Source: Psychrobacter vallis (lineage in GTDB: Bacteria; Pseudomonadota; Gammaproteobacteria; Pseudomonadales; Moraxellaceae). From it: 64,000 nt of DNA. How positions within the stretch are numbered: the stretch's first letter is position 1; every line of letters begins with the position of its first letter. Where the stretch lies: assembly GCF_904846715.1 (NCBI RefSeq), contig NZ_CAJHBU010000007.1:1-64000 (forward strand). Direction: 5' to 3'. Below, piece by piece: positions 5,220 to 64,000 of the stretch. The position numbers and the translations under genes were made by a program. The notes beneath the pieces are model-generated. The model searched no databases. It was not told where the DNA came from and worked only from the letters and a program-made list of their open reading frames with translations.

Positions 5220-6749
5220 TTAATGACGGAAATTTGGTAGCAACGCTGGAATACCAGGCAACATACCAACGACAGCCATTACCCCAGTCAAGATCACGAA
5301 AGTGATAACAGGAATAATCCATCGATTCATTTTTGAGAGATTGGCACTGCGTTCTTTAGAGCCAATGAGTCCTAGATTATCAAGTACCAAGGTGATCGAC
5401 CAACCAAACGCTGGATTTACTAAGGCCGAGGCAAATACGACAATCGCAGCGGATTGCGTCGTCTTACCCTCACGGGTCATCTCCATTCCCGCTTCAAGCA
5501 GGGGAATAAACACGCCGACAATCAGCGCCACACACATCACTGGCTCCCAAATGGCTAAGTCCATTGGATAACCCCAGACACCGGCAATGAGACAGAATAC
5601 CCCAGTGAGTACTGCCCCTGCTGGAATAGGCCGCTTAGCAATCGCCGCTGGCACAATATAAGTACCCCATGACGAAGCAAAGTTAGCACCGCCGAGTAAT
5701 GAGCCTGCCACCTGACGAATTGAGGCACTGGTCATCGTATCATCGATATCCATGAGCACACGCTCAGTGCGTTTTGGATAGCTGATTTTTTGAAACACTT
5801 GATGACCCAAAAAGTCCGGTGACCACATGGCTACCGCCAATACTGCAAATGGTAGCACCACAATAAAACTCTCAACAGTAGGCAATCCTAGCATCCAGCC
5901 CGTGTCTTCACCCCACCAATACATCGGATTCATATTTGGCAGACCTGGTGCGGTTTCAAATGCAAACGGTGCGCCCATGGCGAAGGCGACACCACCACCC
6001 AACAAACAACTTAAAGGCACTGCTAGCCAACGTTTTTGGAAATTTTCTAGTACTGCATATAGGATAATCGTAAGCAAAATTACCACAAAAGCAATGTGCG
6101 CCATGCCAATGCCTTCTGCCCAAGTAAACAGATTCTTAACTTGCGAAATCGTGCCGATAAAGCCTAGATAAAGCAGCAAACCACCACACACGCCTTTACT
6201 GGTCAGATTTGCGAGTAAACTGCCTCCTTTACTGATTGCCAGCAACAAACCAAAAGCCCCAATGAGCAAACCAAAAGCCATTGGATGACCACCAGCGGCA
6301 ACCACAATAGGAATCAGTGGAATTAATGGGCCATGAGTACCAGCAAGATTGGCTGTTGGTAATAAAAACCCTGAAAATAAAATGACAAAAAACGAAACAA
6401 TTAATAATTCATAGCGGACGTTTTCTAAAACGAACGCATCACTCAAACCAAGTGGCCCAGCAAAAGTTGCGGCAATGGCACCCACCATAACCACTTTACC
6501 AATCGTTGCTGCCATCGCTGGAATGGTATCCTCATATTCAAAACGATAATCACGAAATGGCAAGTTGGCACGCCAGCGCTTTGGCTGCATAATCTGTAGT
6601 TCATGGTTGAGATAAGCATCACGATTGTCAAAGCTTGAGCTTGGCTTGTGCAAGTCTATATAACTGCCTTGCAACTCGCTGTCTTGATTGGCTTGGTTTG
6701 ATGGCGGCGGATTAGACCCTGAAGATCGAGTCTGAATGTTACTCATCAC
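5220..6749 (-). CDS. DUF3360 family membrane protein, putative transporter
   Basis: A 509-residue polytopic membrane protein with about 70 hydrophilic N-terminal residues (Ser/Asn/Pro-rich) and then roughly twelve hydrophobic segments. The segments PFRDYRFEYEDTIPA, GTHGPLIPLIP and SPDFLGHQVFQKISYPKR look like the DUF3360 family known from Acinetobacter, Psychrobacter and Vibrio, distantly related to xanthine-uracil/SulP-type carriers. The substrate is unknown. It stands alone, 160 bp downstream of where uvrC begins on the same strand, with a TTCCTTGTATC upstream region that holds AAGGAA as ribosome binding site. Confidence 0.8.
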   Translation of the reverse strand: MMSNIQTRSSGSNPPPSNQANQDSELQGSYIDLHKPSSSFDNRDAYLNHELQIMQPKRWRANLPFRDYRFEYEDTIPAMAATIGKVVMVGAIAATFAGPLGLSDAFVLENVRYELLIVSFFVILFSGFLLPTANLAGTHGPLIPLIPIVVAAGGHPMAFGLLIGAFGLLLAISKGGSLLANLTSKGVCGGLLLYLGFIGTISQVKNLFTWAEGIGMAHIAFVVILLTIILYAVLENFQKRWLAVPLSCLLGGGVAFAMGAPFAFETAPGLPNMNPMYWWGEDTGWMLGLPTVESFIVVLPFAVLAVAMWSPDFLGHQVFQKISYPKRTERVLMDIDDTMTSASIRQVAGSLLGGANFASSWGTYIVPAAIAKRPIPAGAVLTGVFCLIAGVWGYPMDLAIWEPVMCVALIVGVFIPLLEAGMEMTREGKTTQSAAIVVFASALVNPAFGWSITLVLDNLGLIGSKERSANLSKMNRWIIPVITFVILTGVMAVVGMLPGIPALLPNFRH

Positions 6750-8024: not shown

Positions 8025-8447
8025 TTAAATACCAGGTGCAGTATCAACTGCATCAGGTACGCCAGCGTCAGTTTTTTTCTGAGCAACTGAACGAGCAGGA
8101 AGCTTTTCGCGGATACGGGCTGATTTACCAGAGCGCTCACGTAAGTAGTATAGTTTCGCACGGCGAACAGCACCGCGACGTTTCACTTCAATGCTATCAA
8201 TGATTGGTGAATGCAATTGGAATGCACGCTCAACACCGACACCACTTGAAATTTTACGTACGGTAAACGCTGAGTTTAGGCCGCGGTTACGCTTAGCAAT
8301 TACAATGCCTTCAAAAGCCTGTAAACGCTCACGATCGCCTTCACGTACTTTTACTTGAACCACAACGGTATCGCCGGGTGCAAAGCTTGGGCGCTCAAGC
8401 AATTGAGCGTTTTCGATGACCTGAACCAATGGATGCTTGTTGCTCAT
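8025..8447 (-). CDS. rplS: 50S ribosomal protein L19
   Basis: Large-subunit ribosomal protein at the 30S-50S interface. The sequence has the family pattern [35 protein letters not shown] (in parts) and [32 protein letters not shown]. At 140 residues it carries a C-terminal extension of about 20 residues ([11 protein letters not shown]) beyond the usual ~118. A good GGAGATAACTCTC ribosome binding site precedes the ATG. It is the last gene of the rpsP-rimM-trmD-rplS operon, with a 205-bp gap before it. Confidence 0.98.
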
Positions 8448-58446: not shown

Positions 58447-59163
58447 TTATTTTTTAATTAAAGTGTAGGCTACGTTGGTATCATCCAACTGCACTAAAGA
58501 AGCCAGTCTGGCTGATAGTGGATCTTTACTCTCGATTGCCGTTAATATCGCCTTGTGCCTTGGCAATGAATGCGTTTGTAAATTAGGCCTTAGGCTGGTC
58601 AGCTTAATGGATTGTTGTAGCGGTAACACCAACATTTTTGACATATAAGCCAGTAGGTCGTTATGCGTGGCCTTGGCAATGGCAAGATGAAACTCTATGT
58701 CAGGTTGCATAAACTCTTCTGCATTTGTCGCCTTCTCCATGCCCTCATACGCTGTTTTAATCTGTGCAATATCATCATCGGTTGCGGTACTCGCAGCGAT
58801 ATAGGCCATCTCAGGCTCTAAGACACGTCGAACGGTCGATAAGGACTTGAAAAAATCATTTTCTGGTGTGGATTCAATCAACCAAAATAGCACGTCTGGA
58901 TCAAGCATATGCCATTCATCCTTTGGACGCACGACCGTGCCCACTTTTGGACGGGAGTATGTCAGTCCTTTTGAATTAAGAACCCGTATTGCTTCACGAG
59001 AAACGGGCCGACTGACCTGAAACTCTTCACACAACTCGTCTGAGGAAGGTAATTTTTCGTTTTCAGGAAAATGACCAGAAACGATTTTTAGACCCAATTG
59101 TTGAACAATCAATGCATGTTGGCTTTTGCTTGGAACAGGATTCTTGTAGTCGGCAGCGCTCAT
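58447..59163 (-). CDS. FadR-subfamily GntR transcriptional regulator
   Basis: 238 residues. N-terminal winged helix (LGLKIVSGHFPENEKLPSSDEL, EEFQVSRPVSREAIRVLNSKGL) and a C-terminal FCD ligand domain with metal His residues in EFHLAIAKATHN and HSLPRHKAILTAI. It would sense a sugar acid and control the catabolic genes next to it. It is separated from the dehydratase gene by a MITE. Two boxes fitting its family's operator pattern lie between the dehydratase and the transporter. Confidence 0.9.
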   Translation of the reverse strand: MSAADYKNPVPSKSQHALIVQQLGLKIVSGHFPENEKLPSSDELCEEFQVSRPVSREAIRVLNSKGLTYSRPKVGTVVRPKDEWHMLDPDVLFWLIESTPENDFFKSLSTVRRVLEPEMAYIAASTATDDDIAQIKTAYEGMEKATNAEEFMQPDIEFHLAIAKATHNDLLAYMSKMLVLPLQQSIKLTSLRPNLQTHSLPRHKAILTAIESKDPLSARLASLVQLDDTNVAYTLIKK

Positions 59164-59265
59164 ATCTTATCGTTACTCATATTTGACACTAGTATGTTAT
59201 AGAAGACCTTGTCAATAAACAAGGTCTTCTATTTTGCATAAACGAGTGCCAATATTTGAATAAAC

Positions 59266-59438
59266 TAGGGCATGCCCTCAATTCAATCGATAATCATCTA
59301 AATGGACTAAAAATGGCTAAATTTTGCCAAACTGCGTCAAATAGCTAGGTAATATCTCGATATTATCTAGCTATTTTCCTTGTTTGACGGCAATTTATCT
59401 CATTTTTATCACCATTTTTGAAATGAGGGCACGCTCTA
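59266..59438 (-). mobile_element. MITE copy 2 (173 bp), between regulator and dehydratase
   Basis: On the minus strand it begins TAGAGCGTGCCCTCA and ends TGAGGGCATGCCCTA; the inside matches the copy at 14505-14678 closely, including CATTTCAAAAATGGTGATAA. It is non-coding. Its first three bases on the minus strand form the TAG stop codon of the dehydratase gene. Confidence 0.85.
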
Positions 59439-61169
59439 GTGCGAGTGACGAGGTACCTCAGAACCGCGACAGCCGACCAAAAAATCGAAATCGCAGCCTT
59501 CATCCGCTTGCAGCACGTGCTTGACATAGAGTTCACGATACCCACCAATAAAATTGGGTGTAGGTGGTGCTGGTAAATTTGCTAAGCGCTGCTGTAGCTC
59601 TTCATCGCTAACCTCTAAGTGCAATTTGCCTGCGTAGGCATCAAGCTCAATAAAGTCACCGTTTTGTACCGCAGCCAGCGGTCCCCCTGCGCGGGCTTCT
59701 GGAGCTACATGTAATACCACGCTACCATACGCTGTGCCACTCATGCGTGCATCAGAAATTCGTAGCATATCTGTGATTCCTTTTTCTAACAGCTTGGGCG
59801 GCAATCCCATATTGCCGACTTCGGCCATACCCGGATAGCCTTTAGGCCCTGCGTTTTTTAACACCAAAATACAGGTTTCATCGACATCTAAATCTGGATC
59901 TACGATACGTGCTTTATAGTCATCAAGATCTTCAAACACCACAGCGCGGCCACGATGTTTCATCAATTTTTCTGACGCGGCAGACGGTTTAAGCACAGCG
60001 CCCTTTGGTGCTAGATTGCCGTGTAAGATACACATGCCGCCATCTTTACTCAGAGGATTATCTACTTGACGGATGACCTCATCATTATAAATGGGCGAGC
60101 TTTGACAATTCTCCCAAATGCTTTGACCGTTCGCAGTCAGTGCTTGCGGATGCGGTAGCAGATTGTGCTCACCCATACGGCGCAATACCGCAGGCAGACC
60201 ACCGCTATAATAAAACTCTTCCATCAAAAATCGTCCTGATGGCTGCAAATCAACAATGGTGGGCATGCCACGACCTATACGATTCCAATCCTCTAGCTCT
60301 AAATCAACACCAATACGCCCAGCAATGGCTTTTAAGTGAATCACTGCGTTAGTCGAACCGCCAATGGCTGCGTTGACTTTAATCGCATTTTCAAACGCTT
60401 CCTTGGTTAGAATTTTAGACAGCGTCAGATCTTCTTTAACCATATCAACAATACGCATACCTGATAAGTGCGCCAGAACATAACGGCGCGAGTCCACTGC
60501 TGGAATAGCAGCATTGTGCGGTAAAGACGTACCTAATGCTTCAGCCATACAGGCCATGGTAGAAGCTGTGCCCATTGTATTACAAGTACCCGCTGAACGA
60601 GACATTCCTGATTCTGCAGATAGGAATTCGTTTAGATCGATTTTCCCTGCTTTTAACTCTTCGTGCATTTGCCAGACGATGGTACCTGCGCCGATATCTT
60701 TGCCTTTATGTTTGCCATTTAACATCGGCCCGCCTGTGACGACGATGGCCGGAACATCACAACTGGCTGCGCCCATCAATAGCGCTGGCGTGGTTTTATC
60801 ACAGCCTGTTAATAGCACAACCCCATCCATAGGGTTACCGCGAATTGCTTCTTCCACATCCATACTCGCCAAATTACGCGTCAGCATAGCCGTTGGGCGT
60901 AGGTTGGATTCACCACTTGAGAAGACAGGAAATTCAACAGGATAGCCACCCGCTTCTAAGATGCCTTTTTTGACATGCTCAGCAATTTTGCGGAAATGTG
61001 CATTACAAGGGGTCAATTCTGACCACGTATTACAAATACCGATGATAGGTCTACCATCAAACTCATGATCTGGAATACCTTGATTTTTCATCCAGCTACG
61101 ATACATAAATCCATTTTTGTCCGCCGTTCCAAACCAAGCTGCTGAACGTAGTGGCTTCTTGTTTGACAT
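59436..61169 (-). CDS. IlvD/Edd family dehydratase, probably pentonate (L-arabonate/D-xylonate)
   Basis: Iron-sulfur dehydratase that removes water from a sugar acid to give the 2-keto-3-deoxy acid. Cluster cysteines: C55 in NTWSELTPCN, C in LTGCDKTTPAL and C in SAGTCNTMGTAS. The 577 residues and the neighbours (transporter, AraD1/GguC-type protein, aldehyde dehydrogenase) fit L-arabonate or D-xylonate dehydratase rather than the valine enzyme. The stop codon TAG is supplied by the end of a MITE, so the last residues (VPRHSH) may not be the ancestral end. It diverges from the transporter gene. Confidence 0.88.
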   Translation of the reverse strand: MSNKKPLRSAAWFGTADKNGFMYRSWMKNQGIPDHEFDGRPIIGICNTWSELTPCNAHFRKIAEHVKKGILEAGGYPVEFPVFSSGESNLRPTAMLTRNLASMDVEEAIRGNPMDGVVLLTGCDKTTPALLMGAASCDVPAIVVTGGPMLNGKHKGKDIGAGTIVWQMHEELKAGKIDLNEFLSAESGMSRSAGTCNTMGTASTMACMAEALGTSLPHNAAIPAVDSRRYVLAHLSGMRIVDMVKEDLTLSKILTKEAFENAIKVNAAIGGSTNAVIHLKAIAGRIGVDLELEDWNRIGRGMPTIVDLQPSGRFLMEEFYYSGGLPAVLRRMGEHNLLPHPQALTANGQSIWENCQSSPIYNDEVIRQVDNPLSKDGGMCILHGNLAPKGAVLKPSAASEKLMKHRGRAVVFEDLDDYKARIVDPDLDVDETCILVLKNAGPKGYPGMAEVGNMGLPPKLLEKGITDMLRISDARMSGTAYGSVVLHVAPEARAGGPLAAVQNGDFIELDAYAGKLHLEVSDEELQQRLANLPAPPTPNFIGGYRELYVKHVLQADEGCDFDFLVGCRGSEVPRHSH

Positions 61170-61184
61170 GTCTATATCCTTATA

Positions 61185-61195
61185 TAGTATTACTA
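61185..61195. promoter_or_regulatory. FadR-family operator box 1 (dehydratase side)
   Basis: TAGTATTACTA exactly fits the FadR-subfamily pattern T-N-G-T-N3-A-C-N-A. It lies 16 bp upstream of the dehydratase ATG and is part of a 21-bp segment (TATAGTATTACTATTTAAATG) mirrored at box 2. Confidence 0.75.
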
Positions 61196-61244
61196 TTTAA
61201 ATGATAATAATCAAAATACACTAAAAACTATCTTTTTAAAAGGG

Positions 61245-61273
61245 TTTACATTTAAATAGTATTACTATATTTT
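61245..61273 (+). promoter_or_regulatory. sigma-70-like promoter of the transporter gene
   Basis: TTTACA at 61245-61250, then a 17-bp spacer that contains operator box 2, then TATTTT at 61268-61273. A repressor bound to the box would cover the spacer and block RNA polymerase. Confidence 0.5.
61257..61267. promoter_or_regulatory. FadR-family operator box 2 (transporter side)
   Basis: TAGTATTACTA again, within CATTTAAATAGTATTACTATA, the inverse of the box-1 segment except for one base. The box centres are 72 bp apart. Confidence 0.75.
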
Positions 61274-61385
61274 AGTTAAAGCTTTTATACATTATTTCAG
61301 TTATCGACTGATAACGCCCTTAACTACAGATAACTTCTCTTTGGCATGATGCCTGAGAATAACCACATGGAACGTGGAGTTGGAT

Positions 61386-62693
61386 ATGGATTTCGAAAAG
61401 AACGTTATACGAACAGTGACCTACAGATTAATCCCTGCATTGATTGTGCTTTATGTGGTTGCTTATATTGATCGCGGTGCGGTTGGCTTTGCTCACCTAC
61501 ATATGGGCGCTGATGTCGGTATCGGTGACGCCGCTTATGGATTTGGCGCAGGTTTATTCTTTATTGGTTACTTTATGTTTGAGGTGCCCAGTAACTTACT
61601 ATTGGCCAAGTTTGGGGCGCGTAAGTGGTTCACTCGCATTTTATTGACATGGGGTTTGATAACCATGGCAATGGCGCTCATACAAGGCCCTAAAAGCTTT
61701 TATGCTCTTAGGTTCTTACTTGGTGTTGCTGAAGCAGGGTTTTTTCCTGGTGTTTTATATTTGATTACCCAGTGGTTCCCTGTGCGTCACCGCGGAAAAA
61801 TCATGGGGATGTTCGTGCTATCTCAGCCTATTGCCATGGTGATTGCAGGACCGTTGTCTGGTGCCTTACTAGGTATGGATGGCATGGCAAACCTGCATGG
61901 CTGGCAATGGTTGTTCATAGCCGTCGGCTTACCTGCTGTTCTTTTGGCTCTACCCACTTATTTGTATTTGCCAGATGATATTAAAACAGCCAAATGGTTA
62001 ACAGCAGAGCAAAAGAATTGGCTACAAAATGAATTGGTTAAAGATGAGTCTGAGTATGAACAAACACGACATGCCAATCCTTTACATGCGCTAAAAGATA
62101 AACGTGTATTGCTCCTTGCGCTGTATTACCTGCCTGTCACCTTGAGTATTTACGGTTTAAATTTGTGGCTACCCACTATTATCAAACAGTTCGGTGGTGG
62201 CAGCGATCTACGAGTTGGTTTCATATCGAGTATTCCTTATATTTTTGGGGTTGTCGGATTATTGATTATTCCACGCAGTAGTGACCGCTTAAATGATCGT
62301 TATGGACACCTTGGTTTTCTTTATGCAGTAGGTGCTTTTGCCATGTTCTTAAGTGCTTGGCTCACCTCTCCTGTCTTGCAATTGGTTGCACTATCTGCCG
62401 TCGCTTTTTGCTTATTCTCAACGACGGCTGTTTTTTGGACACTGCCGGGCCGATTCTTGACAGGTACCAGTGCAGCGGCTGGTATTGCCTTGATCAATTC
62501 CGTGGGTAACTTGGGCGGTTATCTGGGACCTTATGGCATTGGCTTGTTAAAGGAGTACACAGGCCATATGGCAGCAGGCTTGTACTTCCTTTCTATAGTT
62601 ATGGTTTTTGGTTTGATCCTAACCTATTTCGTCTATGCCAAATTTGAAAAAAAGACATCCCAAAAAATAAACGTTAGCGAACAAACGTACTAA
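61386..62693 (+). CDS. MFS anion:cation symporter
   Basis: 12-helix major facilitator of the anion:cation symporter group (sugar acids, tartrate, galactonate). YVVAYIDRGAVGFAHLHMG and NLLLAKFGARKWFTRILLTWG match the usual motifs. The frame opens at a GTG at 61374; the ATG at 61386 with GGAG upstream gives 435 residues. It probably imports the acid processed by the neighbouring enzymes. The next gene begins 11 bp further on. Confidence 0.85.
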   Translation: MDFEKNVIRTVTYRLIPALIVLYVVAYIDRGAVGFAHLHMGADVGIGDAAYGFGAGLFFIGYFMFEVPSNLLLAKFGARKWFTRILLTWGLITMAMALIQGPKSFYALRFLLGVAEAGFFPGVLYLITQWFPVRHRGKIMGMFVLSQPIAMVIAGPLSGALLGMDGMANLHGWQWLFIAVGLPAVLLALPTYLYLPDDIKTAKWLTAEQKNWLQNELVKDESEYEQTRHANPLHALKDKRVLLLALYYLPVTLSIYGLNLWLPTIIKQFGGGSDLRVGFISSIPYIFGVVGLLIIPRSSDRLNDRYGHLGFLYAVGAFAMFLSAWLTSPVLQLVALSAVAFCLFSTTAVFWTLPGRFLTGTSAAAGIALINSVGNLGGYLGPYGIGLLKEYTGHMAAGLYFLSIVMVFGLILTYFVYAKFEKKTSQKINVSEQTY

Positions 62694-62704
62694 GGACATT
62701 GACT

Positions 62705-63703
62705 ATGAACATCATTCAATTTGAAGCCCAAGACCAGCAGCGCGCGGTTGGCATTGTCGAAAAGAATACCGTCAAACCAGTCAATCAGGTTGAAACGGTT
62801 CGAGACTTGGCATTAATGGCAATCGAAAATACCGTGAGCCTAGAGCAACAGATCGAACAATTAGGCTTTGCCTCTGAGAGCTATGACTACGCACAACTAC
62901 TAGATAACTTACAGGTACTTCCGCCTTTAGATCATCCAGATACTGCGCATTGTTTTGTCTCAGGGACGGGTTTGACCCATTTAGGCTCTGCCGCTACTCG
63001 TGACAAAATGCACCAACAGAACGCGGCTGATACTGCCTCAGTGACTGACACCATGCGTATATTTCAATTAGGTATTGAAAAAGGTAAACCTGCTGAAGGT
63101 AATGTGGGCGCACAACCTGAATGGTTCTATAAAGGCGACGGCTCTATTGTGGTTCGTCCTGGTGCAGATCTGCCGATGCCTAATTTTGCAGAGGATGGCG
63201 GTGAGGAGCCTGAAATTGCAGGTCTGTATGTGATCGGCCTAGACTCAAAACCATATCGCATTGGCTTTGCCATGGGCAACGAATTTTCTGATCACATCAT
63301 GGAACGTCGAAACTATTTGTACCTTGCCCATTCGAAATTACGTTTCTGCAGTTATGGCCCAGAGCTACGTACGGGTGAGCTGCCAAAACATTTGGTCGGC
63401 ACCAGTCGCCTGCGCCGTGATGGTGACGTGATTTGGGAAAAAGAATTTTTATCAGGTGAAGACAATATGTGTCATAGCCTAACCAATCTTGAATACCACC
63501 ATTTTAAATATCAGCAATTTTTAAAACCAGGTGATGTGCATATTCATTATTTTGGTACGGCGACGCTGTCATTTGCAGACGGTATACAAACCCAAATTGG
63601 TGATGAATTCGAGATTGAGATGAAAGAATTTGGTCATTCTTTAAAAAATAAGATTGCACATACTCAACCTGAACTATCCATTGGTTCAGTTAAAACACTC
63701 TAA
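62705..63703 (+). CDS. AraD1/GguC family protein, probable 2-keto-3-deoxy-pentonate dehydratase
   Basis: 332 residues of the fumarylacetoacetate-hydrolase superfamily. Characteristic stretches are FVSGTGLTHLGSAATRDKMH, FYKGDGSIVVRPGADLPMP, GEEPEIAGLYVIG and GVHIHYFGTATLSFADG-like VHIHYFGTATLSFADG. In pentonate pathways a homologue turns 2-keto-3-deoxy-arabonate into 2-oxoglutarate semialdehyde. The ATG at 62705 has AAGGA seven bases upstream; a TTG at 62699 is less likely. The transporter gene ends 11 bp upstream, so the two are cotranscribed. Confidence 0.8.
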   Translation: MNIIQFEAQDQQRAVGIVEKNTVKPVNQVETVRDLALMAIENTVSLEQQIEQLGFASESYDYAQLLDNLQVLPPLDHPDTAHCFVSGTGLTHLGSAATRDKMHQQNAADTASVTDTMRIFQLGIEKGKPAEGNVGAQPEWFYKGDGSIVVRPGADLPMPNFAEDGGEEPEIAGLYVIGLDSKPYRIGFAMGNEFSDHIMERRNYLYLAHSKLRFCSYGPELRTGELPKHLVGTSRLRRDGDVIWEKEFLSGEDNMCHSLTNLEYHHFKYQQFLKPGDVHIHYFGTATLSFADGIQTQIGDEFEIEMKEFGHSLKNKIAHTQPELSIGSVKTL

Positions 63704-63713
63704 GGAGAATACT

Positions 63714-64000
63714 ATGGTTATTGGACAAAATTTTATTGCAGGTCAACGCAGTGCGCTTGGCAGTAAAGTCTTACAAAGCGTTAATGCCAGCACAGGAGAA
63801 GCCTTGGATTATGAGTTTCATCAAGCCACTGAAGAAGAGGTCAATCAGGCGTGCGAAGCCGCCAGTGAAGCCTTTAAAAGCTATCGTAATACGTTACCTG
63901 AACAGCGTGCGTTATTTCTAGAAGCGATTGCCGATGAACTGGACGCTCTAGGACAAGATTTTCTCGAAAATATTTCTCAAGAAACCGCGCTACCACTTGC
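63714..64000 (+). CDS. aldehyde dehydrogenase, probable 2-oxoglutarate semialdehyde dehydrogenase (start only)
   Basis: The frame opens at an ATG with TAAGGAGAATACT before it and runs off the window after 95 codons. The N-terminus (VIGQNFIAGQRSALGSK, ASTGEALDYEFHQATEEEV, AFKSYRNTLPEQRALFLEAIADEL) is that of the NADP-dependent 2-oxoglutarate semialdehyde dehydrogenase group. It follows the AraD1-type gene by 10 bp and would complete the pathway to 2-oxoglutarate. Confidence 0.82.
   Translation, partial: MVIGQNFIAGQRSALGSKVLQSVNASTGEALDYEFHQATEEEVNQACEAASEAFKSYRNTLPEQRALFLEAIADELDALGQDFLENISQETALPL

Follow-up and report, generated by a model that had tools for sequence, protein, structure and literature searches.

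The 64,000-nucleotide stretch of Psychrobacter vallis DNA analyzed here (hereafter, the window) contains, close to its right end, a set of genes whose products belong to families involved in the catabolism of sugar acids, together with the gene of a putative local regulator. Two identical short palindromic boxes are located between the pentonate-type dehydratase gene of this cluster and a divergent operon that encodes a transporter, a GguC-family protein and an aldehyde dehydrogenase. The genes are as follows.

58447..59163, minus strand: GntR/FCD regulator of the FadR subfamily (Pfam GntR and FCD domains), gene located 3' of the dehydratase gene
59436..61169, minus strand: IlvD/Edd-type sugar-acid dehydratase, pentonate-type by profile matches
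61386..62693, plus strand: MFS transporter, relative of D-galactonate transporters (TIGR00893, 311.5 bits, under the cut-off of 395)
62705..63703, plus strand: GguC/AraD1-family protein, probable 2-keto-3-deoxy sugar-acid dehydratase (NF040903, over the cut-off)
63714..64000, plus strand: aldehyde dehydrogenase, probable ketoglutarate-semialdehyde dehydrogenase (Pfam Aldedh), continuing past the window end

The dehydratase scored 962.9 bits against the NF004784 model (cut-off 539); against NF009559, the model for L-arabinonate dehydratase, it reached 830.4 bits, short of the cut-off of 882. The GguC/AraD1-family protein has a weak match in the PDB to 2-keto-3-deoxy-D-arabinonate dehydratase (E = 0.0023), and the open reading frame of the aldehyde dehydrogenase extends in L060 to position 8289. 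Judged by sequence family, these proteins suggest uptake of a sugar acid, followed by its conversion via a 2-keto-3-deoxy acid towards 2-oxoglutarate, and the gene neighbourhood suggests a pentonate or another aldonate as the class of effector. Farther past the window end (L060, 12794-18999), there are minus-strand genes that, from their translations, we take to resemble a malonate decarboxylase cluster and a permease. A membrane PQQ glucose dehydrogenase is encoded in the same genome (1058.9 bits against TIGR03074, above the cut-off). In Pseudomonas, the periplasmic enzyme of this type, Gcd, produces xylonate (PMC10107873) and, by analogy, the P. vallis enzyme might supply xylonate to the cluster.

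Both domains that define the FadR subfamily are detected in the regulator (PF00392, 50.1 bits with a cut-off of 27; PF07729, 81.3 bits with a cut-off of 24.3). Its best match in the PDB is 7C7E (E = 3.9e-31), which is DgoR of E. coli (PMC12288454, PMC7674646). Residues D155, H159 and H203 of the regulator (counted by hand) align with the metal residues D146, H150 and H195 of DgoR and are invariant in 15 aligned relatives; by alignment, the Asp-His-His metal site that DgoR-type regulators have in the effector pocket is present. Given the relationship to DgoR, repression and a sugar-acid effector are likely.

Two elements were noticed between the dehydratase and regulator genes. A strong stem-loop, AGAAGACCTTGT-CAATAA-ACAAGGTCTTCT, is located just before the regulator gene (59199-59232); it also occurs in relatives from Psychrobacter and Acinetobacter (paired changes are visible by eye in L031-L033) and could tune the expression of the regulator from the dehydratase transcript. 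The second is a MITE-like element of ~175 bp (59265-59439) with imperfect terminal inverted repeats (CTAGGGCATGCCCTCA...), which overlaps the dehydratase stop codon and may reduce the extent to which the two genes are co-transcribed. This element is absent from L029-L033; the P. vallis genome contains 40 matches to it, of which 28 score at least 129 bits and cover most of the element.

The box pair in the window and in the genome

The boxes and the inverted repeat to which they belong map to the following positions.

61185..61195, no strand: left predicted operator box, TAGTATTACTA, flanked by the candidate leftward transcription start and the ribosome-binding site of the dehydratase gene, whose start codon is 15 bp away
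61257..61267, no strand: right predicted operator box, TAGTATTACTA, within the 17-bp spacer of the candidate rightward promoter
61182..61203, no strand: left arm of the inverted repeat, partner of 61249-61270
61249..61270, no strand: right arm of the inverted repeat, partner of 61182-61203

Operators of the FadR subfamily have been described as TKGT/ACMA palindromes, usually with 3 nt between GT and AC (PMC4494728). An initial sequence-only reading of the window had pointed out two identical 11-mers of this type, 72 bp apart and embedded in 21-bp arms that are inverse to each other with one mismatch. Both copies are exact, lie at the positions given there, 72 bp apart from start to start, and fit the FadR-subfamily pattern, with the qualification that the second base of the box is often A (TAGT) as opposed to the K of the published TKGT half-site. 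The inversion and the single mismatch were reproduced as well; the arms, however, span 22 rather than 21 columns, and the mismatch falls on the central T shared by two odd palindromes. Because each core is itself palindromic, the description of the boxes as mirror images holds only through the flanks, TTTAAA on the inside and TATA on the outside.

No second inverted repeat matching in at least 20 of 21 positions within about 150 bp was found in the window, and six Markov-shuffled windows yielded none each. The strict pattern, TNGTNNNACNA, occurs 18 times in the 64-kb window (expectation, 0.06 per 216 bp), and only in this pair are two matches 70-76 bp apart. On the genome scale, the bare 11-mer is not enriched (5 exact copies vs 9 for the reversed control), so that a single box alone proves little. 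The extended 17-bp motif, with up to 2 mismatches allowed, is found in the 3.22-Mb genome at these two places only; at 3 mismatches, there are 47 matches, fewer than the 79 of the reversed control. A wider regulon was not seen in this genome: the other three exact 11-mers score below the window boxes (13.1 for L003, 10.1 for L004 and 19.1 for L005 vs 27.6), and the best of these, L005, is inside a long open reading frame. Probably, then, the regulator is local in its targets, to judge from the restriction of the 17-bp motif to these two places. In the region before the regulator gene itself (59164-59435), there is no strict box and only one loose GT...AC match, at 59380; thus, autoregulation through the regulator's own promoter was not seen.

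Conservation of the pair in relatives

A search with the regulator yielded 31 named loci, of which 28 contain a complete divergent region between the dehydratase and transporter genes. The box pair is present in all 28 (4 from Psychrobacter, 13 from Acinetobacter and 11 from Pseudomonas). Together with the window, L035, L113 and L107-L111, these amount to 36 readable loci whose regulators are no less than about 55% identical, across Psychrobacter, Acinetobacter and Pseudomonas (L107-L112 are from genomes of the same order, and the genus Pseudomonas is certain for 11 loci only). By the criterion of the sequence-only reading itself, a lack of the boxes in orthologous clusters with the same regulator would have spoken against it; at this level of identity, the pair was found in every readable locus (36/36) under a pattern that allows one change and was widened after the Pseudomonas boxes were seen, whereas the strict pattern matches both boxes in 32 of the 36, the right box being one base off in four Pseudomonas loci. 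In all 36, the left box is 14-19 bp from the dehydratase start. Outside this set are L056, where the contig ends inside the dehydratase gene, L059, with another gene context, and L112, which has no box.

Of 299 genomes drawn from the family of the window, 23 gave a match to the regulator and the same 23 to the dehydratase (E cut-offs of 1e-30 and 1e-240, respectively); at these cut-offs, no genome that lacks the regulator but has the dehydratase was available as a control. All 23 contain the pair, with a spacing of 72 bp (7), 73 bp (15) or 74 bp (1); this set overlaps the named loci, and the counts of 36 and 23 are not additive. The 390 genomes drawn from the order added six relatives, of which five contain the whole cluster and the pair, 74 bp (4) or 75 bp (1) apart. 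A class-wide search for the regulator recovered the source genome alone (1 of 369). In the sixth of the relatives from the order, L112, where the regulator is ~50% identical, no box was found near the dehydratase or the transporter, which counts against extending the box rule to all homologues.

Two Psychrobacter loci, L035 and L113, retain the pair at 72 bp despite a decayed transporter gene, and here the regulator gene is at the far end of the cluster. The transporter remnants consist of DNA pieces 81.5%, 75.2% and 85.2% identical in L035 (13725-14524) and of one 71% identical piece in L113 (9117-9437), with both operators intact in each locus. A second cluster, with a transporter 71% identical, lies nearby in L035. 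In Paraburkholderia, where the gene context differs, the same box adjoins a regulator that is 58% identical: L059, from Paraburkholderia polaris, contains a strong box and a weaker FadR-type box, at 5931 and 6076, between the regulator gene and a gene identified from its translation as that of a sugar ABC transporter. The distance between these two boxes, 145 bp, is about twice that in the window.

Taken at the level of sequence, conservation in the relatives is strong evidence for the box pair. The lack of enrichment of the bare 11-mer would fit chance palindromes in an A+T-rich spacer. We rejected this explanation, to which we assign a vanishingly small probability, on the grounds that, among 15 representatives of three genera, GT...AC is invariant in both boxes while the sequence in between has drifted. 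It is also improbable that the boxes serve a different regulator whose control of the cluster is incidental: in line with this scenario, some loci have the regulator gene apart from the dehydratase gene, but the two genes occur in the same 23 of the 299 genomes, the boxes match the FadR-subfamily pattern, and in Paraburkholderia, with its different enzyme genes, the box still lies beside the regulator.

Promoters, control and the spacing of the boxes

Two candidate promoters were delineated between the divergent genes.

61245..61273, plus strand: rightward promoter candidate, TTTACA-17-TATTTT, with a frame conserved in relatives
61213..61241, minus strand: leftward promoter candidate (weak), TTTTAA-17-TATTTT, its -35 element 3 bp from the rightward -35

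For the rightward candidate, the two hexamers recur 17 bp apart as TT[GT]NNN in 33 and TATNNT in 36 of the 36 loci. The bare consensus is not above chance, with 2 promoter-like sites in 61150-61400 compared to 1.6 +/- 1.4 in shuffled sequences. Accordingly, the earlier statement that one box lies in the spacer of a good promoter is borne out by the position and the conserved frame but not by the consensus match alone, which is within chance.

The leftward candidate was not singled out by promoter scoring, and in many loci, other frames score better. It is suited by the T, T and A residues at -22, -21 and -17 before the right box, which are invariant in 15 representatives, and the transcript would begin roughly 10 bp before the left box. 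The corresponding A/T element between the boxes, TTTTTAAAA (61233-61241), is conserved in three genera; we take it as the leftward -35, although it could alternatively be the site of another factor. A mirror promoter that reads leftward through the left box, TTATCA-17-TATAAG, has the best score in the window, yet it was set aside by judgement: its start would coincide with the dehydratase ribosome-binding site (AAGGA) or lie beyond it, hence our preference for the upstream candidate.

Considering all these observations, we find it highly probable that the regulator encoded at 58447-59163 has its paired operators in the two boxes; it would control both promoters and be released by a sugar acid. 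Under this scheme, in the absence of the effector, a dimer on the right box would cover the spacer of the rightward promoter, from which the transporter, the GguC-family protein and the aldehyde dehydrogenase are expressed, and a dimer on the left box, located between the leftward start and the dehydratase ribosome-binding site, would block the dehydratase transcript. Both boxes would be freed by the effector, either an aldonate or the 2-keto-3-deoxy acid formed from it, so that uptake and breakdown would be switched on together. Repression in both directions by the nearby GntR regulator, as originally suggested, is thus supported, in that the positions of the boxes suit two-way control; repression as such is predicted from DgoR.

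The spacing between the boxes varies little. From start to start, it is 72 bp in 7, 73 bp in 16, 74 bp in 11 and 75 bp in 2 of the 36 loci, that is, close to seven helical turns (73.5 bp at 10.5 bp per turn). By comparison, among the 34 loci in which the transporter gene is intact, the intergenic regions range from 165 to 325 bp, and the spacing is uncorrelated with their length (r = 0.25, p = 0.16, n = 34). In the analysis of Suvorova et al., a constant distance between sites indicates joint action and a growing distance, independent operators; joint pairs are placed mid-region in divergons, and for divergons without a regulator gene, only independent pairs are reported (PMC4494728). The pair described here resembles their joint double-site divergons in that the distance between sites does not grow as the intergenic length increases, and departs from them in that the sites are not central, the left box being close to the dehydratase start and the right box separated from the transporter start by 66-222 bp.

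Within the preferred scheme, the regulator could use the two boxes in either of two ways. Somewhat favoured is the possibility that the operators are independent, one per promoter, and that their spacing is fixed by the packing of the back-to-back promoters. Each box is at its own promoter, and the candidate -35 elements, 3 bp apart, leave little room for a change in length; furthermore, pairs of this kind are the only ones that Suvorova et al. report in divergons without a regulator gene (PMC4494728), and DgoR is described as a dimer (PMC12288454). Against this weigh the constant spacing, a sign of joint action in the same analysis (PMC4494728), its retention at 72 bp in the loci with a decayed transporter gene (though the remaining operon still needs a promoter), and the ability of related FCD proteins to bridge two sites (PMC7797058, PMC5412874).

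The other possibility, to which we give distinctly less credence, is that two dimers touch, in a tetramer or a short loop of about seven turns, with each box strengthening repression from the other. The ~7-turn spacing would set both dimers on one face of the DNA, so that they could meet or enclose the leftward promoter in a short loop. Distances of 72-75 bp across three genera, near the 73.5 bp of seven turns of 10.5 bp, fit such an arrangement, which has precedents in the loop formed by the Atu1419 tetramer (PMC7797058) and in the tetramer drawn for LldR (PMC5412874). Four neighbouring spacings within 4 bp are, however, too narrow a range for helical phasing to be recognized, and packing explains them equally well. 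Likewise, the DNA looping that the sequence-only reading raised as a possibility is compatible with the constant spacing, but so is back-to-back packing of the promoters, and we regard looping as a minority possibility. The most specific version, in which a DgoR-like FCD repressor silences two overlapping back-to-back promoters at a stroke by a very short, seven-turn loop, with one operator within a promoter, the other immediately downstream of the opposing one, and both kept in phase across three genera, is rather unlikely. The natural spacings of 72, 73, 74 and 75 bp provide ready-made promoters for asking whether FCD regulators act jointly over two sites.

Relation to known systems

A literature search by title and the beginning of the abstract, which took in neither preprints nor subscription journals nor the supplements of PMC4494728, found no work on this regulator or box, and of the 19 papers that contain one of the 11-mers, none is, by title, on such a regulator. 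The box pair and its regulator form a well-supported further case of a known regulatory type, previously undescribed in the literature searched. For Psychrobacter, Acinetobacter and Pseudomonas, the regulator thereby gains a firm prediction of its binding site and of the genes under its control, along with a probable type of inducer.

With respect to metabolism, the closest parallel is with Weimberg-type clusters for oxidative non-phosphorylative use of pentoses, which share the dehydratase, the 2-keto-3-deoxy acid dehydratase and the ketoglutarate-semialdehyde dehydrogenase (PMC10107873, PMC6336799). In contrast to these, the cluster described here encodes a GguC/AraD1 protein, and the xylose cluster of Pseudomonas has a LysR-type regulator (PMC10107873).

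Among the regulators, LldR of the E. coli lactate operon is likewise a member of the FadR subfamily, with two operators at one promoter that are drawn as joined by a tetramer; it differs in that one operon is controlled rather than two and in its ligand (PMC5412874). Atu1419 of Agrobacterium fabrum, a tetrameric FCD repressor, similarly has two identical palindromes in a divergent region, one of them in a promoter spacer, and a DNA loop between these palindromes, 190 bp apart, has been proposed and imaged (PMC7797058). In addition to this greater distance, the Atu1419 system differs in its 10-bp palindrome, ATGTATACAT, and in that the regulator is itself one of the divergent genes (PMC7797058); furthermore, Atu1419 belongs to the VanR group and the window regulator to the FadR group.

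DgoR, the repressor of D-galactonate use in E. coli (7C7E), is likewise a GntR/FCD protein and the closest relative with a solved structure, with aligned metal residues. As in the case described here, there are two inverted repeats, and the core of IR1, TTGTAGTACAA, fits the same 11-mer pattern (PMC12288454). The DgoR repeats are closely spaced over the single promoter of the regulator's own operon (PMC12288454), whereas the boxes in Psychrobacter and its relatives are 72-75 bp apart between divergent operons, and the window regulator, in contrast to DgoR, is not encoded by the first gene.
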